This document shows, one piece after another, positions 4,001 to 18,673 of a DNA stretch of 64,000 nt. Position 1 is the first letter of the stretch, and every line of letters starts with the position of its first letter. The stretch spans positions 1-64,000 of the forward strand of contig NZ_AZAC01000016.1 of NCBI RefSeq assembly GCF_000931935.2, given 5' to 3'. Position numbers and translations under genes: made by a program. This DNA comes from Dethiosulfatarculus sandiegensis. Lineage in GTDB: Bacteria; Desulfobacterota; Desulfarculia; Desulfarculales; Desulfarculaceae. Below the pieces are notes generated by a model. It ran no database searches. It was not told the DNA's origin and worked only from the letters and a program-made list of their open reading frames with translations.

Positions 4001-7000
4001 CTATTGGCTGCAGGCCTCCAGCCGTTTGATGGTTCCATGCAGATTGCGGATGCGGCGGCTGAGTTCCTTGCAGATCTGAAGGGCCACCTGGGGAAATTCT
4101 CGCACTGTTTCAGAGAACTCTCTTTTGTGCAGAACCAGAAGGCCCGTGTCCTCCTGGGCCGTGACAGTGGCTGAACGCAACTGGTCCTCGAAAAGGGCCA
4201 TTTCGCCAAAGTATTCCCCGGCCATGGCAGTGTCTATCTCCACCTGCCTGCCGTCGTCAGCCTGTTTTTTGACTGCCACCTTGCCGGAGATGATCAAGAA
4301 CATGGTTTCGCCTTCTTCTCCCTCCACTACTATATTCTGACCTGCCTTGACCCGTTCTTCCTCGGTAATACTGGCAATGGCTGAGAGCTCCTGAATGGTG
4401 AGGCCGCTGAAAATATCCATGCCTTTGAGCAGAAGTATTTTGTCTGAAAGGGTTATGGGCTGCGACATGTCCTTCTCCTTTAGGGGCAATTCCTTATACC
4501 CGGCATCCAATAGTCGTGTGGCCATTTCCCTTACCCTGGGGTTATCCGAATCGGCCAGTTCCTTTATCTTATCTTGGAAGCCAAAGGCGGAAATTTCCCG
4601 GTCTTGTGCAATGACGCATAAAATCAGGTACTGGATGAGCCAGTCATTTTGTTCCAGCAGTTTGTTAAAAACTTGGCCATCGCCTGTACGCGGCATGGCT
4701 ATTTTAAATTGTCTTTTGGCAACTTCGATGCATTCATTTACATTGTGATCTTCCAAAAGCGGCAACATGGCCGTGGAAAGATAGGATCCCACCATTGATT
4801 CCAGGGCCTCCACCGCATTGGAGCGCAGCTTGGCATTGGCCGAACTCAATCCCCTCATTATTATGCGCATCTGGGAGGAGTCTTCTTCCTGAGTGGCCAG
4901 AACCCTGAGGATATTCTCCACCCTGGCTGTTTTTTTGGCCAGAAGGTGGTCTTGTAAAAGACTGATCATGGGGTTTTTCGCTATTTTTGCCAAGGCCTGG
5001 GCATACACCAGATTGAAATAGGCGCGGTTTAAGTTTTCCCTGGCATAGGCCATGATATCCAGGTCGCTGACCTGCATGTTCTCCAAAAGGGAGAAAAGTG
5101 CGCTTCTGATGCCCCGGTTCGGCAGGGTGAGGGACTCTATAAGTATGCCCACATGCTGGGTGGGGGCGTCTTTCAGTTTGCGTTGGGCCAGGCTGCGCAA
5201 CTCTTCCGATTCACCGCCCAGAAGATTTACCATGGTGCGCACGGATTGATCATCCGAAAGAGTGTAGTCGTCCAAAACCTCCAGCGGGACTGTTTGGGGC
5301 TCGGTCTCCAGCCCGGTGCGGATCAATTCCTGCAAGTTGGGAGCCTCAAGACGGTTCAAGGCCATGAAGATGTAGCTTGTCACCTCCTGGTCCTTTTCTT
5401 GTTTCAGCATTTCTCCCAATTTATATAGATATGATTTGTCTCCGGATTCTCCCGCGGCCAGGGCTCCGGCGCATTTTTCCATGCATTCTTCAGAAGCCAG
5501 CCATTTGTTGATCATGGGTCTGTAAGAATCCGGATCATTGGCGTATAGGCCGTGCATGGCCTGGGCCTTGACCCAAACGTCATCTGACTCGGAATATAGT
5601 TTTTTAAGGAAGTCGCCGCTTACTGAAAGCGGCATGCGTGAGGCAGTTCGGGCCAAGGCGGCGTTTAGAGTGGGTTTGTCCGGATCATAAAGCCTATCAA
5701 ACACGCTAATGGCTTGGTCATCGGCTTCCCGGGTCAGCAACTCCAATAGGCCTATTTGAGTGGTCCCGTTTTTCTGGGGAATAATTTCAAGCAGGGTCTG
5801 GTTCAGATCTTCCACCCCCTGCTCCTTCATCATGCGCGCATACCATACACAGGTTTTCCCGGTGGCTCTGCGGCAGGCAGAGGCCAGGGAAACCTGAGCC
5901 CCCTTGTCCTTGAACAACTGGCCTACGTCATCGGCTTCCAGTGACTTGAGATCCACCACCTTGTCCGAGACCAGGCCCAACAGAACATTGGAATAGACCT
6001 TCTTAAGCCATATCGAGGTCATTACCCAGCCTGCACCGCAAATTATGCCGGCTATGGAAAGATATTTGGGATGAAGAATTCCTTCAGCAAGCAGAATAAT
6101 ACCGCTGCCGGTCAAGATGCCGACCCTGACCACCGTGCCCCGTAAAAATGGGCGCACCAATGGCTGCAGCTCCGAGGGGAATAGCCCCAGTAAAATCGCC
6201 CTGGCCGGGTTATTTATGGTCACCTTGAGCACCTGGGTGGAGATGCGCGCGTATATGGCCGAACCCACTCCAAAATTCAGCAAGAAGGATAAGAAGGCGA
6301 GCACATAGTTGGCCGGGTGGAACATGAGCGCCACCGGAAGGCCCCATCTGGAGTAAATTTTGCCCACAAAAAGCAGAATCACCAGGCTGATAATATTCAG
6401 CACACCCCTGAAGTAACCAAAGAAGTTCAGCATTCCGCCTTCCGTGGTAAAGGCTTCGTTAACTGCGTAGTTAAATTGGTAGTTCAGGATGGGGATCATG
6501 ATATTGGGCAGGAGCGTAAGCAATATCAGGATCTTCAAGAGAGTCGACTTCTTGGCCATGGGCAGGATTTTTTTTATCTCCTGCTTGAAGCTGGTCTTTT
6601 TCTTGGCCTTTCTCGCGGTCCTCTCCGGCAAGGCCAGGGTGGGAAAGACTGTGTTCATGCGCCAGACAATGGTCGCGGCCATGCAGGTGCTCACCAGATA
6701 GGCGACCATCAGGTTGTTTAAGTTTATGAGGTCTGCCAGGGCCGGGGTGCCAAAGCTGCCGATTATTCCGCCCAAAACACCGCCTGCGGTGATCAGCGGA
6801 AAAAGACGCTTGGACTGGCGGGTGTTGAAAAGGTCATTGGCCAAAGACCAGAAAATCAGCCCTAAAAGGGCCTCATATTGGGATTTGAGCAGAAACAGGA
6901 CCGGGTAAACAAAATCCAGGCCGGTCCCCACCACAAAGCGCAGGCCGAATACCGATACGCCGCAGAATATAAGCAGATAGCCCAAGAGCCGTGCGCTCGG

Positions 7001-7234
7001 CATTTTGCGCATTACACCTGCGATCATGCCCATTATGACAAAGGTCACGATGGAGTTGGCCGCATAGACTACGGGCAGGTACTCCACGCCAAAGCGTTTC
7101 AGAAAAGTGGTTTCGGCAAAGTTGTTGAGGAGTATGTTCGATGTGCGGATCAGGAACAAAAGGCCCGCTGTCCAGAGGAAAACAGCGATCTCCTGTTTTT
7201 GGATTTTGAGCCATTTGTTTAGAAAAGAATTCAT
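4001..7234 (-). CDS. Fusion protein: ADP/ATP-carrier-like membrane domain, HEAT repeats and C-terminal cNMP-binding domain
   Basis: 1077 residues. Residues about 1-420 are a polytopic membrane domain with roughly 11-12 hydrophobic segments. It resembles nucleotide (Npt/Tlc-type) carriers and MFS proteins, for example in its SKRLFPLITAGGVLGGIIGS stretch. Residues about 430-900 are helical, HEAT-like repeats with recurring short paired helices. Residues about 925-1045 are a cyclic-nucleotide-binding domain. Its phosphate cassette, GEYFGEMALFEDQLRSATV, keeps the Glu, Arg and Ala positions used by true cNMP binders. A short basic helix ends the protein. GGAG sits five bases before the ATG. It stands alone between an intergenic region and the peptide importer. 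The likely role is membrane transport or sensing gated by a nucleotide; the substrate is unknown. Confidence 0.85.
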   Translation of the reverse strand: MNSFLNKWLKIQKQEIAVFLWTAGLLFLIRTSNILLNNFAETTFLKRFGVEYLPVVYAANSIVTFVIMGMIAGVMRKMPSARLLGYLLIFCGVSVFGLRFVVGTGLDFVYPVLFLLKSQYEALLGLIFWSLANDLFNTRQSKRLFPLITAGGVLGGIIGSFGTPALADLINLNNLMVAYLVSTCMAATIVWRMNTVFPTLALPERTARKAKKKTSFKQEIKKILPMAKKSTLLKILILLTLLPNIMIPILNYQFNYAVNEAFTTEGGMLNFFGYFRGVLNIISLVILLFVGKIYSRWGLPVALMFHPANYVLAFLSFLLNFGVGSAIYARISTQVLKVTINNPARAILLGLFPSELQPLVRPFLRGTVVRVGILTGSGIILLAEGILHPKYLSIAGIICGAGWVMTSIWLKKVYSNVLLGLVSDKVVDLKSLEADDVGQLFKDKGAQVSLASACRRATGKTCVWYARMMKEQGVEDLNQTLLEIIPQKNGTTQIGLLELLTREADDQAISVFDRLYDPDKPTLNAALARTASRMPLSVSGDFLKKLYSESDDVWVKAQAMHGLYANDPDSYRPMINKWLASEECMEKCAGALAAGESGDKSYLYKLGEMLKQEKDQEVTSYIFMALNRLEAPNLQELIRTGLETEPQTVPLEVLDDYTLSDDQSVRTMVNLLGGESEELRSLAQRKLKDAPTQHVGILIESLTLPNRGIRSALFSLLENMQVSDLDIMAYARENLNRAYFNLVYAQALAKIAKNPMISLLQDHLLAKKTARVENILRVLATQEEDSSQMRIIMRGLSSANAKLRSNAVEALESMVGSYLSTAMLPLLEDHNVNECIEVAKRQFKIAMPRTGDGQVFNKLLEQNDWLIQYLILCVIAQDREISAFGFQDKIKELADSDNPRVREMATRLLDAGYKELPLKEKDMSQPITLSDKILLLKGMDIFSGLTIQELSAIASITEEERVKAGQNIVVEGEEGETMFLIISGKVAVKKQADDGRQVEIDTAMAGEYFGEMALFEDQLRSATVTAQEDTGLLVLHKREFSETVREFPQVALQICKELSRRIRNLHGTIKRLEACSQ

Positions 7235-13775: not shown

Positions 13776-14918
13776 ATGGCCGACAGCCTTATCGTACAGG
13801 GCAATGAGGCCTGTGTTCTGGGAGCCTTGGCCGCCGGTTGCGGCTTTTTTGCCGGTTATCCCATTACCCCGGCCTCGGAGATAGCGGAGTTGATGTCTCG
13901 TGATCTGCCCGGAAGACAAGGGGTTTTTGTACAGATGGAAGACGAGATCGCCTCTATCAGCGCAGTTATAGGGGCCTCGTGGGGGGGCAGATTATCCTTG
14001 ACCGCAACCAGCGGGCCCGGTTTTTCCCTGATGCAGGAGGGGATAGGCTATGCGGCCGAGACTGAAACCCCCTGCGTAATTATTGATGTTCAAAGGGGTG
14101 GCCCCTCCACAGGGCAGCCCACCATTTCCGCTCAGCAGGATATTTATCAGGCCAAGTACGGCAGCCATGGCGATTATGAGGTGATCGTGTTATGCCCTTC
14201 TTCGGTGCAAGAGGCCTTTGATCTGACTTACAAAGCCTTTCACCTTGCAGAGCGATTTCGCACGCCGGTGATTCTGCTTTCAGACGAGATTGTGGGTCAC
14301 ACCAGGGAAAAACTTAAAATTCCGGAAAATTTGGAAACGGTGCAGCGAAAGCCTCCCAAGACGCCTCCGGCCGACTATCAGATGTACAAGCCGGGCCCGG
14401 ACGGACTTTTGGACGGCATGCCCGGCCTGGGGCGGGGATACGACATTTTGGTGGACGGGCAGCTTCATGACGAGACTGGCAACAGAAAGGGCGGGGATAT
14501 CAAAGCCTCGGCCAGGTTGGTTGAAAGGTTGTGTAACAAGATAATCGACCACACCCAAGAACTTACGGATATTGAAGAACGCTCTTTAGATGACGCCGAT
14601 GAAGTCTTTGTGTGCTTTGGCCCGGTGGCCCGCTCCGCTTTACATACAGTGAGTCTGGCCAGGGAACAGGGCCTTAAGGCGGGATGCTTGAAGTTGAGAA
14701 CCCTGTGGCCTTTTCCCGATGAAAAGTTGAGACAACTTTTAAGGGGCGTGAAAAGGGTGTTGGTGCCTGAGATGAATATAGGCAAGCTGTGCCGGGAGGT
14801 GAGAAGGGTGCTGCCGGAGTCTGGGCGGGTTATTTCCCTGCCCAAACTTGGCGGGGATCTGCACACCCCTGATGAGCTGATGAACGCCTTAAGTAAACCT
14901 TTACGGAAAGGTTTTTGA
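13776..14918 (+). CDS. korA: 2-oxoacid:ferredoxin oxidoreductase, alpha subunit (KorA-like)
   Basis: 380 residues. It begins with the alpha-subunit signature GNEACVLGALAAGCGFFAGYPITPASEIAELM, read here in pieces (residues about 8-40), followed by the thiamine-pyrophosphate pyrimidine domain (TATSGPGFSLMQEGIGYAAE). The C-terminal half holds the transketolase-C-like domain (LKLRTLWPFPDEKLRQL, then VPEMNIGKL). The subunit order alpha, beta, ferredoxin, gamma in one operon is that of 2-oxoglutarate-type enzymes. The enzyme oxidatively decarboxylates 2-oxoglutarate (or another 2-oxoacid) to the acyl-CoA and reduces ferredoxin, or runs in reverse during CO2 fixation. A GGGAGG site lies upstream of the ATG. 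Confidence 0.92.
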   Translation: MADSLIVQGNEACVLGALAAGCGFFAGYPITPASEIAELMSRDLPGRQGVFVQMEDEIASISAVIGASWGGRLSLTATSGPGFSLMQEGIGYAAETETPCVIIDVQRGGPSTGQPTISAQQDIYQAKYGSHGDYEVIVLCPSSVQEAFDLTYKAFHLAERFRTPVILLSDEIVGHTREKLKIPENLETVQRKPPKTPPADYQMYKPGPDGLLDGMPGLGRGYDILVDGQLHDETGNRKGGDIKASARLVERLCNKIIDHTQELTDIEERSLDDADEVFVCFGPVARSALHTVSLAREQGLKAGCLKLRTLWPFPDEKLRQLLRGVKRVLVPEMNIGKLCREVRRVLPESGRVISLPKLGGDLHTPDELMNALSKPLRKGF

Positions 14919-14919
14919 T

Positions 14920-15747
14920 ATGCACCCCTTGGCTGAAAAATACTTACGCAAAAGCGCGCTTCCGACCATTTACTGCCCGGGGTGCGGTCACGGAACCGTG
15001 CTTAACGCCTTTGTGCGGGCAATCGATGAACTTGCTATAGGCGATGAGCTGGCCCTGGTGGGCGGCATCGGCTGTTCGGGCTGGACCCCTGTTTTTATAA
15101 AGTCCGATGTGCTGCACACCCTGCATGGACGAGCCCTGGCCATGGCCACGGGCCTTAAATTGGCCCGGCCGGATCGCAAAGTGGTGGTTTTCACCGGAGA
15201 CGGGGATTGCCTGGCCATTGGGGGCAACCATTTCATGCATGCGGCCAGGCGCAACCTAGACCTCACGGTTGTTATGATGAACAACAATATCTATGGCATG
15301 ACCGGAGGTCAGACCGCTCCTTCAACTCCCTATGGGGCCATAACCCAGACCTCGCCCCACGGCAACCCGGAACCGGCCTTTGACGCCTGTGAACTGGCCC
15401 GTTCCTTTGGGGCCTCATTCATTGCCCGCTGGACCAGCGCCCATCCCCTGGGGCTCAAGAAATCCCTTAAACAGGCCATGGTCCACCAGGGGTTTTCCTT
15501 TGTGGAGGTCATGGTGCAATGCCCAACCCAGGCCGGGCGATACATGCACGGAACCTCTGATGCGCTGGAACTCATGCAAATGCTTAAGAAAAAAGCTATT
15601 CCAGTCAAAAAGGCCGATCAAAAAAGCCCCGAGGAGCTAAAAGGCAGGTTTACAGTCGGCAAGTTGCTTGAGAGAAACGGTTTGCCGGAATTCAGCCGCA
15701 CCCAGTACGACCTTATGCAAAGGGCCTCAAAGGAGCCGCGGGCATGA
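14920..15747 (+). CDS. korB: 2-oxoacid:ferredoxin oxidoreductase, beta subunit (KorB-like)
   Basis: 275 residues. The beta subunit carries the thiamine-pyrophosphate and a [4Fe-4S] cluster. YCPGCGHGTV near the N-terminus is the CxxC cluster motif. The GDGDCLAIGGNHFMHAARRN stretch and the NNNIYGMTGGQ motif form the Mg-TPP site, and GTSDALELM lies near the C-terminus. The start follows the korA stop by one base, and its stop overlaps korD by four bases, so translation is tightly coupled. Family length is normal. Confidence 0.93.
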   Translation: MHPLAEKYLRKSALPTIYCPGCGHGTVLNAFVRAIDELAIGDELALVGGIGCSGWTPVFIKSDVLHTLHGRALAMATGLKLARPDRKVVVFTGDGDCLAIGGNHFMHAARRNLDLTVVMMNNNIYGMTGGQTAPSTPYGAITQTSPHGNPEPAFDACELARSFGASFIARWTSAHPLGLKKSLKQAMVHQGFSFVEVMVQCPTQAGRYMHGTSDALELMQMLKKKAIPVKKADQKSPEELKGRFTVGKLLERNGLPEFSRTQYDLMQRASKEPRA

Positions 15748-15953
15748 TCAGTATAGATAAGGATTTCTGTAAGGGATGCGGGCTTTGCATCGGCGTGTGC
15801 CCTGAAGGGGTGCTGAAGCTCTCGGATGAACGTAATCAAAAGGGCTATCTCCTGCCCTTTGCCGAGTGCCCCGAGGCCTGTAATCATTGTCTTTTATGTG
15901 AAAGCGTCTGCCCTGATATGGCGCTTTATGTGGAGAAAGACCATGCGTCATGA
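15744..15953 (+). CDS. korD: Ferredoxin-like delta subunit of the 2-oxoacid oxidoreductase (KorD-like)
   Basis: 69 residues with two [4Fe-4S] motifs. The first is CKGCGLCIGVCPEGVL and the second CNHCLLCESVCPDMAL; an extra cysteine (AECPEAC) precedes the second. It moves electrons from the catalytic subunits to free ferredoxin. The ATG overlaps the korB stop by four bases, and the stop overlaps the korC start by 11 bases. Confidence 0.92.
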   Translation: MISIDKDFCKGCGLCIGVCPEGVLKLSDERNQKGYLLPFAECPEACNHCLLCESVCPDMALYVEKDHAS

Positions 15954-16488
15954 GGTGATGTTCGCCGGATTCGGCGGTCAGGGTGTGATCAAAGCGGCGA
16001 TTCTGCTAACCATTGGAGCGGGGCTGTATGAAGGCAGGGAGGTGGCTCAGACCCAATCCTATGGCCCTGAGGCCAGGGGAGGGGCCTGCCGCAGCCAGGT
16101 GGTTCTTTCGGAGAAGGCCATAGACTATATCAAGCCCCTTTGCATAGATGTACTTAGTGTGATGTCCCAGCCAGCCATGGATATGTACGGCAAGGATATT
16201 GACCCGGACAAGACCCTTGTTGTCTATGACTCCACCCTGGTGACCAACCTGCCGCCTCTGGTAAAAAAAGCCCACCCCATACCGGCTACAAGAGAAGCGG
16301 AGACTAAATTGGGCAAGGCGCTTTTTGCCAACATCATTATGCTCGGCGGTTTTTGCGCCCTTACCTCCATGGTGAGCCTCGATTCCCTGAAAAAGGCGCT
16401 AAAAGGAAACGTTCCTCCCCAGACCCTGGCCAAAAACCAAATGGCTCTTGACCTGGGCTATGAGCTGGCCAAAGGCTTGGCTGCTTGA
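15943..16488 (+). CDS. korC: 2-oxoacid:ferredoxin oxidoreductase, gamma subunit (KorC-like)
   Basis: 181 residues from the ATG at 15943, which has GGAG upstream and gives the canonical N-terminus MRHEVMFAGFGGQGVIKAA. Longer in-frame starts lie inside korD. The gamma signature continues with QTQSYGPEARGGACRSQVVLS. It completes the four-subunit KorABDC complex. It converges on the acyl-CoA dehydrogenase-fold gene with a terminator between them. Confidence 0.93.
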   Translation: MRHEVMFAGFGGQGVIKAAILLTIGAGLYEGREVAQTQSYGPEARGGACRSQVVLSEKAIDYIKPLCIDVLSVMSQPAMDMYGKDIDPDKTLVVYDSTLVTNLPPLVKKAHPIPATREAETKLGKALFANIIMLGGFCALTSMVSLDSLKKALKGNVPPQTLAKNQMALDLGYELAKGLAA

Positions 16489-16570: not shown

Positions 16571-17749
16571 TTATCTGAATATGGAGCGGGCCACCTGGGT
16601 GAGTTGGGCCTGGGTGGTGCCGCCGCCTATCTGAAACATCCTTACATCCCTGAGCATGCGCTCCAAAGGCAAATCCCTGGAATAACCAGCCGCGCCGAAC
16701 ATCTGTAAAGATTCACTCACCGCCTCAAAGGCCGCATGGCCGGTAAAGGCCTTGGCCATGGAGGATTCCTTTATCTCGGGCATCATGACATTGTTCGGCA
16801 AATACCTGGCTGTACAGGCTGAGCGGTAGATCAAAAGCCGGGCCGCATCCAGTTTGGTCTGGCCTTCGGCCATGATCCATTGCAGACCCTGGTATTGGGA
16901 GATGGCTTTGCCAAAGGTCTCCCTTTTTTTCATGTAATCGACTGCCAAGTCATGGGCTCCCTGGGCCAGCCCCAGGGCCACTGCGCTGGCTCCGGTGCGT
17001 TGTCCGTTGTAGCCGTACATGAGCTTTTTAAAGCCAGAGTAATTGGGCTTTAGCTCCGGGTCCGGCATCACCACTACATTTTCAAAGGGAACCAGGCAAT
17101 CTTCAAAGATAAGCTCTGTCTCGGGGATGCCCCTGAGACCCATGGCATCTTCCACCCGGCCAAAGCTGAATCCCGGATGCCCTTTATCCACCATTATTCC
17201 GCCGATGCCCTTTTCCGCACCGCTTTCATCGAAAAAACGAACGAAAATCAGGTTGGTTATGGAGATGCCTCCACCGGTTATCCAATGCTTGCGCCCGTTT
17301 ATCATATAGCCGTCTTTGGTCTTTTCTGCACGGGTTTTCAGTTCCGTCAGATTGGTGCCGGCCTGGGGCTCGGTCATGCCGATAGCGGGTTTATCGCCTT
17401 GCTTCAAAATGCGCTTGGCTGTGATTTTTCTTTGCTCTTCCGTGCCATAGGCCATGATGCAGCCCAAGGCCCCCATATTGGATTCAACCAGGATGCGCCC
17501 GGTTACCCCGCAGTATTTGGCAGCGGTCTCAATGGCCACTATGGCATCCAAAAGCGGCCTTTCCGGACCCCCGTATTTGTGGGGAATGGTCATGCCCAAA
17601 AGACCCAGCTCCCTCAGGCGCGATACGTTTTCCCAAGGATATTCATGATTGGCGTCCCAACGGGCCGCCTTGGGCGCGAATTCCTTTTTACCGAGTTCAT
17701 CCACCAGGGCAATGATTTTTTCCTGTTCTTCCGTGAATTCAAAATCCAA
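16571..17749 (-). CDS. Acyl-CoA dehydrogenase-fold flavoprotein, catalytic Glu missing (desulfinase-like)
   Basis: 392 residues with the three acyl-CoA dehydrogenase domains: N-terminal helices (1-120), a beta domain with MTEPQAGTN and WITGGG, and a C-terminal helical FAD domain (RETFGKAISQYQGLQW, MFGAAGYSRDLPLERMLRD). The usual catalytic Glu of the YEGT motif is replaced: the protein reads IGGGT (Gly376). The alternative Glu position of isovaleryl-type enzymes is Gln250 (YNGQRTGA). Arg85 sits in GRILVESNMG. This Arg/Gln/Gly set matches the published 3-sulfinopropionyl-CoA desulfinase (Arg84, Gln246, Gly366), so dehydrogenase activity is doubtful. The start is TTG with AAGGAG eight bases upstream. 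A five-codon out-of-frame ATG ORF overlaps the site. The gene follows an RpiR regulator gene by 24 bp. Confidence 0.85.
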   Translation of the reverse strand: MDFEFTEEQEKIIALVDELGKKEFAPKAARWDANHEYPWENVSRLRELGLLGMTIPHKYGGPERPLLDAIVAIETAAKYCGVTGRILVESNMGALGCIMAYGTEEQRKITAKRILKQGDKPAIGMTEPQAGTNLTELKTRAEKTKDGYMINGRKHWITGGGISITNLIFVRFFDESGAEKGIGGIMVDKGHPGFSFGRVEDAMGLRGIPETELIFEDCLVPFENVVVMPDPELKPNYSGFKKLMYGYNGQRTGASAVALGLAQGAHDLAVDYMKKRETFGKAISQYQGLQWIMAEGQTKLDAARLLIYRSACTARYLPNNVMMPEIKESSMAKAFTGHAAFEAVSESLQMFGAAGYSRDLPLERMLRDVRMFQIGGGTTQAQLTQVARSIFR

Positions 17750-17773: not shown

Positions 17774-18673
17774 TTAGTTTTTTGAGTTTGGGCTAAGGGC
17801 ATAGCGGCTTTTGGTCAGCACTTCCTTTTCGTATAGGGAGAGCGCCTTTTGGGCCCTTTGCGGATTTTGGGCTATTATTTTTTCAACCAGGGCGTTTATC
17901 AGACACATCGGAGCGGTAAGGGAGATAATGGAAAAGTCGCGTTGTCCTGAGAGGTCCAGGAAAAAGGGCAGGTCCGAGTACTGGACAATCTGGGCCAGAG
18001 GATCATTGGTAAAGGTGGCTATTTTAACCTCTTTTAGTTTTGTGCTCACATAGGCGACCGCGTCGTAGACTTCCCGGGAATACAGAAGCAGGTCAAAGAC
18101 AATCAGGAAATCGCCTTTTTTAAGGTTCAGCACCTGCTCCAAAAGGCTGCGTCTTTCCCGGACAACGGGTCTTGAATTAAGCCCCAGGCGGGTAAGCTGA
18201 AAGGCCAGGAATTCCGCTAAAAAAGAGGATATACGCCAGCCCAGACAAAAAACCCTTTTGGCCTGGGATATTTCATCCGCCAACCTTTGAAAACGGCCGG
18301 GGTCAACCCCTTCAATGGTGCGGGTTATGTAGGCCAAATCCAGGTCCTTTACCCTTTCAAGGACGCCGCCGGTCCTGGGCGGTTGCTCCAGGCTGGGTTT
18401 TTGGGCGTATATGGCCCGGCGAATGTATTCCGCCAGGTGTTCGCGCATCTGCTTGTAGCCTTCAAAACCCACTTCCCTGGCAAAGCGGACCAGGGTGGCG
18501 TCTGAGGTGCCGATTTGTTTGGCCAACTCAGATACAGTCAGAAGAGTGGCGGACTCGGGATTTTTCAATACGTAATCAGCAACCAGTTTGTGGGAATCGC
18601 TCAGCTGGTCATACTTTTGTTGTATGGACCTTATGACATCCAGTGTCTCCGGGCTTTTGCCTTTGCCTGACAT
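17774..18673 (-). CDS. MurR/RpiR-family transcriptional regulator
   Basis: 299 residues. The N-terminal HTH_6 domain (about 10-85) includes LTVSELAKQIGTSDATLVRF. The C-terminal SIS domain (about 125-260) includes FCLGWRISSFLAEFLAFQL and GDFLIVFDLLLYSREVYDAV. RpiR proteins usually sense a sugar phosphate, but several act on other catabolic loci. It is the first gene of a two-gene minus-strand unit with the acyl-CoA dehydrogenase-fold protein, and presumably controls it. AAAGGAAAAGGG lies just before the ATG. Confidence 0.9.
   Translation of the reverse strand: MSGKGKSPETLDVIRSIQQKYDQLSDSHKLVADYVLKNPESATLLTVSELAKQIGTSDATLVRFAREVGFEGYKQMREHLAEYIRRAIYAQKPSLEQPPRTGGVLERVKDLDLAYITRTIEGVDPGRFQRLADEISQAKRVFCLGWRISSFLAEFLAFQLTRLGLNSRPVVRERRSLLEQVLNLKKGDFLIVFDLLLYSREVYDAVAYVSTKLKEVKIATFTNDPLAQIVQYSDLPFFLDLSGQRDFSIISLTAPMCLINALVEKIIAQNPQRAQKALSLYEKEVLTKSRYALSPNSKN

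Follow-up and report, generated by a model that had tools for sequence, protein, structure and literature searches.

Organization of the locus

The window, by which we mean the whole stretch of 64,000 nucleotides of Dethiosulfatarculus sandiegensis DNA that was analysed, carries on its minus strand an open reading frame with boundaries exactly at 16571 and 17749. Its TTG start sits behind AAGGAG and matches the residue at which relatives have ATG; on the plus strand of the same segment, the same frame is interrupted by stops. The gene and its neighbours are arranged as follows.

13776-14918, plus strand: 2-oxoacid:acceptor oxidoreductase alpha subunit, convergent with the desulfinase-like gene
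14920-15747, plus strand: 2-oxoacid:ferredoxin oxidoreductase beta subunit
15744-15953, plus strand: small two-cluster ferredoxin (delta) subunit, recognised in the translation (CxxCxxCxxxC); its frame overlaps the listed gamma open reading frame
15943-16488, plus strand: oxidoreductase gamma subunit, likely start MRHEV (the listed open reading frame begins at 15826)
16571-17749, minus strand: desulfinase-like protein of the acyl-CoA dehydrogenase fold, 392 aa, TTG start, with Arg85, Gln250 and Gly376
17774-18673, minus strand: RpiR/MurR-type regulator (HTH_6 and SIS domains), ending 24 bp upstream of the desulfinase-like gene

The protein matched all three Pfam domains of the acyl-CoA dehydrogenase superfamily (PF02771, PF02770 and PF00441; N-terminal, middle and C-terminal, respectively), and its predicted model superposed on the desulfinase structure 5af7 with a Foldseek TM score of 0.85. 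The original prediction of an acyl-CoA dehydrogenase-fold protein at this place was thus borne out. It had also described a preceding RpiR regulator and the absence of any other fatty-acid gene nearby: the regulator does lie upstream on the same strand, possibly on one transcript with the desulfinase-like gene, and the neighbours inspected include no further fatty-acid gene. Missing from that description was the complete oxidoreductase (13776-16488), which converges on the desulfinase-like gene, with 82 bp between the end of the gamma subunit gene and the 3' end of the latter. Elsewhere in the window, 4001-7234 encodes a 1077-aa protein in which a TLC ATP/ADP-transporter-like region is combined with HEAT repeats and a cyclic-nucleotide-binding domain.

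Relationship to the 3-sulfinopropionyl-CoA desulfinases

Among PDB sequences, the best match of the window protein was the desulfinase of Advenella mimigardefordensis (Acd/AcdA, EC 3.13.1.4; PDB 5af7) with 340 bits, the next match reaching 235 bits; a profile of its clade, defined below, gave 389 bits for the desulfinase and 287 bits for the next entry. The top three Foldseek matches of the predicted model were all 5af7 or 5ahs, at 44% identity. This AlphaFold model (mean pLDDT 72, built from only 8 sequences) is adequate for the fold and poor at residues 157-160, 200-209 and 376-382, and it was used for fold comparison only. Identity to annotated desulfinases is 44-47%, and the NCBIfam desulfinase model (NF042439) assigned the window protein 464 bits, with the next family at 303 bits. 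The curated cut-off of that model is 600 bits, which was reached neither by the window protein nor by two of its relatives (480 and 491 bits).

A maximum-likelihood tree was calculated from 38 proteins, including nine clade members and seven desulfinases; the benzylmalonyl-CoA dehydrogenase IaaF was not among them. The window protein and eight relatives from Desulfobacterota formed one clade (support 100/100), the seven desulfinases formed another (100/100), and the two were sisters with a joint support of 100/99, the window protein not being nested inside the desulfinases. The nearest well-supported outgroup in the sample was L023-L026, isovaleryl-type acyl-CoA dehydrogenases that share small residues at 375-376 with the window protein, but differ from it in that position 250 is still occupied by the catalytic Glu and Arg85 is absent. 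These proteins (about 40-42% identity) were considered as further members of the clade and rejected on account of the same two residues. Since the outgroup has Glu at 250, the base was probably lost and the Arg gained before the clade and the desulfinases split, in which case desulfinase chemistry was probably inherited by the clade.

The clade is rare. Among the 395 genomes sampled from the phylum, a high-identity clade gene was present in the window's own genome only; in the class of genome G438, the gene was found in 6 of 390 genomes. The genome collection contained eight contigs with a match to the clade gene, one of which is a short fragment. The relative in G018, from the same family as the window's organism, is 73% identical to the window protein. 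Because scores of 464-491 bits stay under the cut-off of 600 and the activity is only predicted, we file the clade as a putative sister variant of the known desulfinase.

The residues expected to carry catalysis were compared in an alignment of 37 proteins (8 clade members, 7 desulfinases and 22 other acyl-CoA dehydrogenases), with 5af7, the butyryl-CoA dehydrogenase 4l1f and the medium-chain enzyme (MCAD) 1ukw as reference structures. Column 376 holds the Glu of the MCAD and butyryl-CoA enzymes, and column 250, the position of MCAD Thr255, is the base site of the isovaleryl-type enzymes; that the two positions form a pair is confirmed by the PDB title of 1egd, 'T255E, E376G mutant'. The window protein has Gln250 and Gly376, the latter within the motif I-GGG-T (G375-G376-G377), and these residues are kept across the clade. 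A Glu or Asp at either position, which had been named as the observation that would speak against a base-less enzyme, was thus not encountered in the alignment with the three structures. Arg85, Gln250 and Gly376 align exactly with Arg84, Gln246 and Gly366 of the Advenella desulfinase, in agreement with the earlier reading of both Glu positions as replaced and Arg85 as kept, the numbering of which was also correct.

The full Arg/Gln/Gly set was found in all aligned clade members (8/8), in all desulfinases (7/7) and in none of the 22 other acyl-CoA dehydrogenases, not one of which has either Arg85 or Gln250. The ninth clade member (L112, genome G568) has Arg, Gln and Gly at the corresponding places in its sequence, which brings the total for the two groups to 16/16. 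Among further positions common to both clades and rare elsewhere are Y247, V88, K120, P121 and I123. The clade nevertheless differs from the desulfinases at column 124, with Gly or Ala where 7/7 desulfinases have Cys, and in a short insertion of its own around residues 317-321. The designation desulfinase-like is consistent with the closest PDB sequence, the fold matches, the sister position in the tree and the residue set, and we regard it as well supported by these comparisons, if not proven.

Gene neighbourhoods of the clade and of aerobic desulfinases

A class III CoA-transferase gene adjoins the clade gene in seven of the nine loci (G018, G438, G439, G440, G441, G442 and G568), so that most relatives share this link with the desulfinase systems. 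In G018 the clade gene stands in a run with the transferase and a Liv/Urt-type ABC transporter, and TAXI-type TRAP transporters occur near the clade gene in three of the seven transferase loci. PrpR-like regulators are found nearby in four loci; a sigma-54 promoter, which they brought to mind, was discarded, as no -24/-12 match was present within 700 bp upstream of the clade genes. Genes for succinate dehydrogenase/fumarate reductase-like subunits B and A lie directly upstream of the desulfinase-like gene of G440, on the same strand (L113:4302-6735; L019:5430-7917).

The pairing of desulfinase and CoA-transferase is known from Advenella, Variovorax, Mesorhizobium, Paraburkholderia and Diaphorobacter. 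Among the loci of aerobic plasmid desulfinases that we read, three have it, two contain a cysteine-dioxygenase gene and one a sulfate-exporter family gene; two roseobacter desulfinase loci had no adjacent transferase within the stretch shown. In Advenella and Variovorax, CoA activation by SucCD or Act is followed by sulfite release by Acd (PMC6370202, PMC5373536). The clade CoA-transferases are 38-43% identical to the desulfinase-linked ones, compared to 41-43% for other Desulfobacterota transferases. These values show no more than a general resemblance, and orthology between the two sets was not supported. Beside a CoA-transferase on plasmid p1 of Paracoccus sp. SCSIO 75233, two acyl-CoA dehydrogenase genes are adjacent (L030:6986-8140 and 5805-6980), of which one has Thr and Gly in place of the two bases (250 and 376, respectively) and no Arg85, and the other keeps Glu at 250; they are possibly an active/inactive pair.

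Metabolic setting and proposed reaction

Unlike the known desulfinases, the clade is found in Desulfobacterota, and mostly together with dsrA, which scored above the cut-off in seven of eight clade genomes, the window's included. In the window's genome, dsrA is followed by a second, dsrB-like match. Methylmalonyl-CoA mutase is present in 9/9 clade genomes, again including that of the window, which also has a succinate-CoA ligase. The cysteine-dioxygenase family, which includes 3-mercaptopropionate dioxygenase, gave no match in 8/8 clade genomes (mostly drafts, in which absence means not found), and the known source of 3-sulfinopropionate is thus missing from these genomes. The idea that sulfite from organosulfur compounds feeds respiration gains context from dsrAB, methylmalonyl-CoA mutase and succinate-CoA ligase, and the window's organism could use both sulfite and propionyl-CoA.

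By analogy with the Advenella enzyme, the window protein most likely acts on 3-sulfinopropionyl-CoA or a closely similar compound and sets sulfite free. We infer that it would bind FAD and a short acyl-CoA with a sulfinate at the chain end, most likely 3-sulfinopropionyl-CoA; with the sulfinate held by Arg85, cleavage of the C-S bond would give propionyl-CoA and sulfite and involve neither dehydrogenation nor a net redox change. The role of the Arg draws on a result with an R84K variant of the Advenella desulfinase, reportedly part of a 2015 structure paper, in which the enzyme, with the same residues, is also said to have been measured without dehydrogenase activity. PMC8360864 describes an attack of the Advenella enzyme on the sulfino group, which leaves as sulfite, and states that this enzyme does not carry out a redox reaction. 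DsrAB of the same cell could then reduce the sulfite, and the propionyl-CoA would feed into the methylmalonyl-CoA route. For activation to the thioester, most relatives would rely on the dedicated class III CoA-transferase encoded beside the clade gene, and some loci also have carboxylate transporters. The thioester in the window's organism might come from the general succinate-CoA ligase, since a ligase of this type activates 3-sulfinopropionate in Advenella (PMC6370202, PMC5373536), or from the neighbouring 2-oxoacid:ferredoxin oxidoreductase. Taken as a whole, desulfinase-type cleavage of what is likely 3-sulfinopropionyl-CoA, with sulfite passed to DsrAB, is the reading that we consider probable.

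The pathway of the characterized 3-sulfinopropionyl-CoA desulfinases is aerobic and relies on a dioxygenase to make their substrate. In the literature searched, the coverage of which was incomplete, we found no report of such an enzyme in a sulfate reducer. If the proposed reaction is correct, a sister clade in sulfate and sulfite reducers would add C-S bond cleavage to the ways in which anaerobes obtain sulfite from organosulfur compounds. Since the window's bacterium has the genes to respire sulfite, the same small sulfur compound could supply it with both food and electron acceptor.

Alternative explanations

What else could a base-less protein of this fold be doing? The alternative that fares best, although we think it unlikely, retains the scaffold and the kind of chemistry and changes the substrate, either to another sulfinate or sulfonate thioester or to one undergoing vinylogous decarboxylation (for example, of glutaconyl-CoA to crotonyl-CoA), its carboxylate being bound by Arg85. 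The missing dioxygenase would be in line with this, as would the deviation of column 124 from all desulfinases and the adjacent CoA-transferases, whose best model is a succinate-glutarate CoA-transferase (347-363 bits, far under its cut-off of 750). On the other hand, Arg85, Gln250, Gly376 and the residues around them are kept in common with the desulfinases, and the glutaryl-CoA dehydrogenase model gives the window protein only 202 bits, compared to 464 for the desulfinase model. For the window copy in particular, which has the longest branch of its clade and no transferase beside it, the substrate may have shifted.

The strongest candidate for a different reaction, to which we give a smaller chance still, is that of a decarboxylating acyl-CoA dehydrogenase without a base, of the type of IaaF. 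In this mechanism, the enolate arises from a malonyl-type thioester by CO2 loss, which makes a base unnecessary, and a hydride then passes to FAD. Like the window protein, IaaF occurs in anaerobes and has no Glu in its C-terminal motif, which reads GGG where the window protein has I-GGG-T; sulfate reducers are reported to possess iaaF-containing iaa operons, and a phenylsuccinyl-CoA transferase takes part in the IaaF pathway (PMC8360864). PMC11659651 assigns this transferase to family III. The GGG motif is not specific to IaaF, however, being found also in the annotated desulfinases L027, L029 and L031. Furthermore, IaaF is an isolated branch apart from the desulfinase in the published tree (PMC8360864), whereas the window protein groups with the desulfinases (44-47% identity, support 100/99). 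IaaF is also tied to indoleacetate operons (PMC8360864); no such operon was seen at the clade loci, where neither a methylmalonyl-CoA-mutase-like iaaGH nor any other iaa-type gene was present among the neighbours examined.

A catalytically silent relative whose function is confined to the binding of CoA esters, for instance in partnership with the RpiR regulator, appears very unlikely as a description of the window protein: although its long branch and the regulator gene in place of a CoA-transferase might suggest it, the candidate active-site residues and surrounding motifs are all intact, and relatives with intact motifs sit beside transporters and CoA-transferase. Least credible of all is an ordinary acyl-CoA dehydrogenase using some other base, as the full set of domains would allow, since no clade member has an acidic residue at either of the known base positions and the Advenella enzyme with the same residues catalyses no redox reaction (PMC8360864).

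The 2-oxoacid:ferredoxin oxidoreductase beside the gene

If, as we favour, the window protein is a desulfinase, the origin of its thioester deserves attention, as the window copy differs from the known desulfinases in adjoining an RpiR regulator and a 2-oxoacid oxidoreductase rather than a transferase. No close copy of the clade CoA-transferase was found in the window's genome, and G437 has only a 37% relative located elsewhere in the genome. In both of these genomes, which have no adjacent transferase, the desulfinase-like gene adjoins the same oxidoreductase subfamily. In G437 (L015) the oxidoreductase lies upstream on the same strand, about 260 bp from the desulfinase-like gene, which is preceded by a partial beta-subunit homologue beside a scaffold gap; a run of N in this chromosome contig of a metagenome-assembled genome (L015:6186-6286), next to the truncated beta gene, marks the gap. 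The gamma subunits of the window and L015 are 58% identical, compared to at most 45% with gamma subunits found outside the subfamily; in L015, too, it is the gamma gene that borders on the desulfinase-like gene. Since the subfamily occurs in only 9 of the 395 phylum genomes, two adjacencies to the desulfinase-like gene are unlikely to be due to chance, and the neighbouring oxidoreductase is a possible source of the acyl-CoA substrate.

It is tempting to speculate that this oxidoreductase, and not a CoA-transferase, supplies the desulfinase of the window's lineage with substrate, although we hold the scenario to be improbable. Oxidative decarboxylation of the sulfinyl analogue of 2-oxoglutarate, 2-oxo-4-sulfinobutyrate (one conceivable origin being homocysteine sulfinate), would yield 3-sulfinopropionyl-CoA, from which the desulfinase would release sulfite for DsrAB. 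Such a route would be oxygen-independent, and would provide reduced ferredoxin, propionyl-CoA and electron acceptor from one molecule. With the spacing of about 260 bp in G437 and varied neighbours elsewhere, the oxidoreductase link stays a lead. A common pathway around the subfamily was rejected, because its neighbours change from genome to genome: a Tct-type transporter, succinate-CoA ligase and GlcD in L078/L079, and gamma-glutamyltranspeptidase, PdxA or others elsewhere. The link to the desulfinase is therefore carried by the two adjacencies only. In L079 (2709-16195) and L078 (G012, G010), a conserved cluster around the 2-oxoacid oxidoreductase comprises a fumarase-type hydratase, a GntR regulator, the Tct-type transporter (a putative assignment), the succinate-CoA ligase, the GlcD-type oxidase and an enolase-superfamily gene, which suggests the catabolism of some hydroxy-dicarboxylate.
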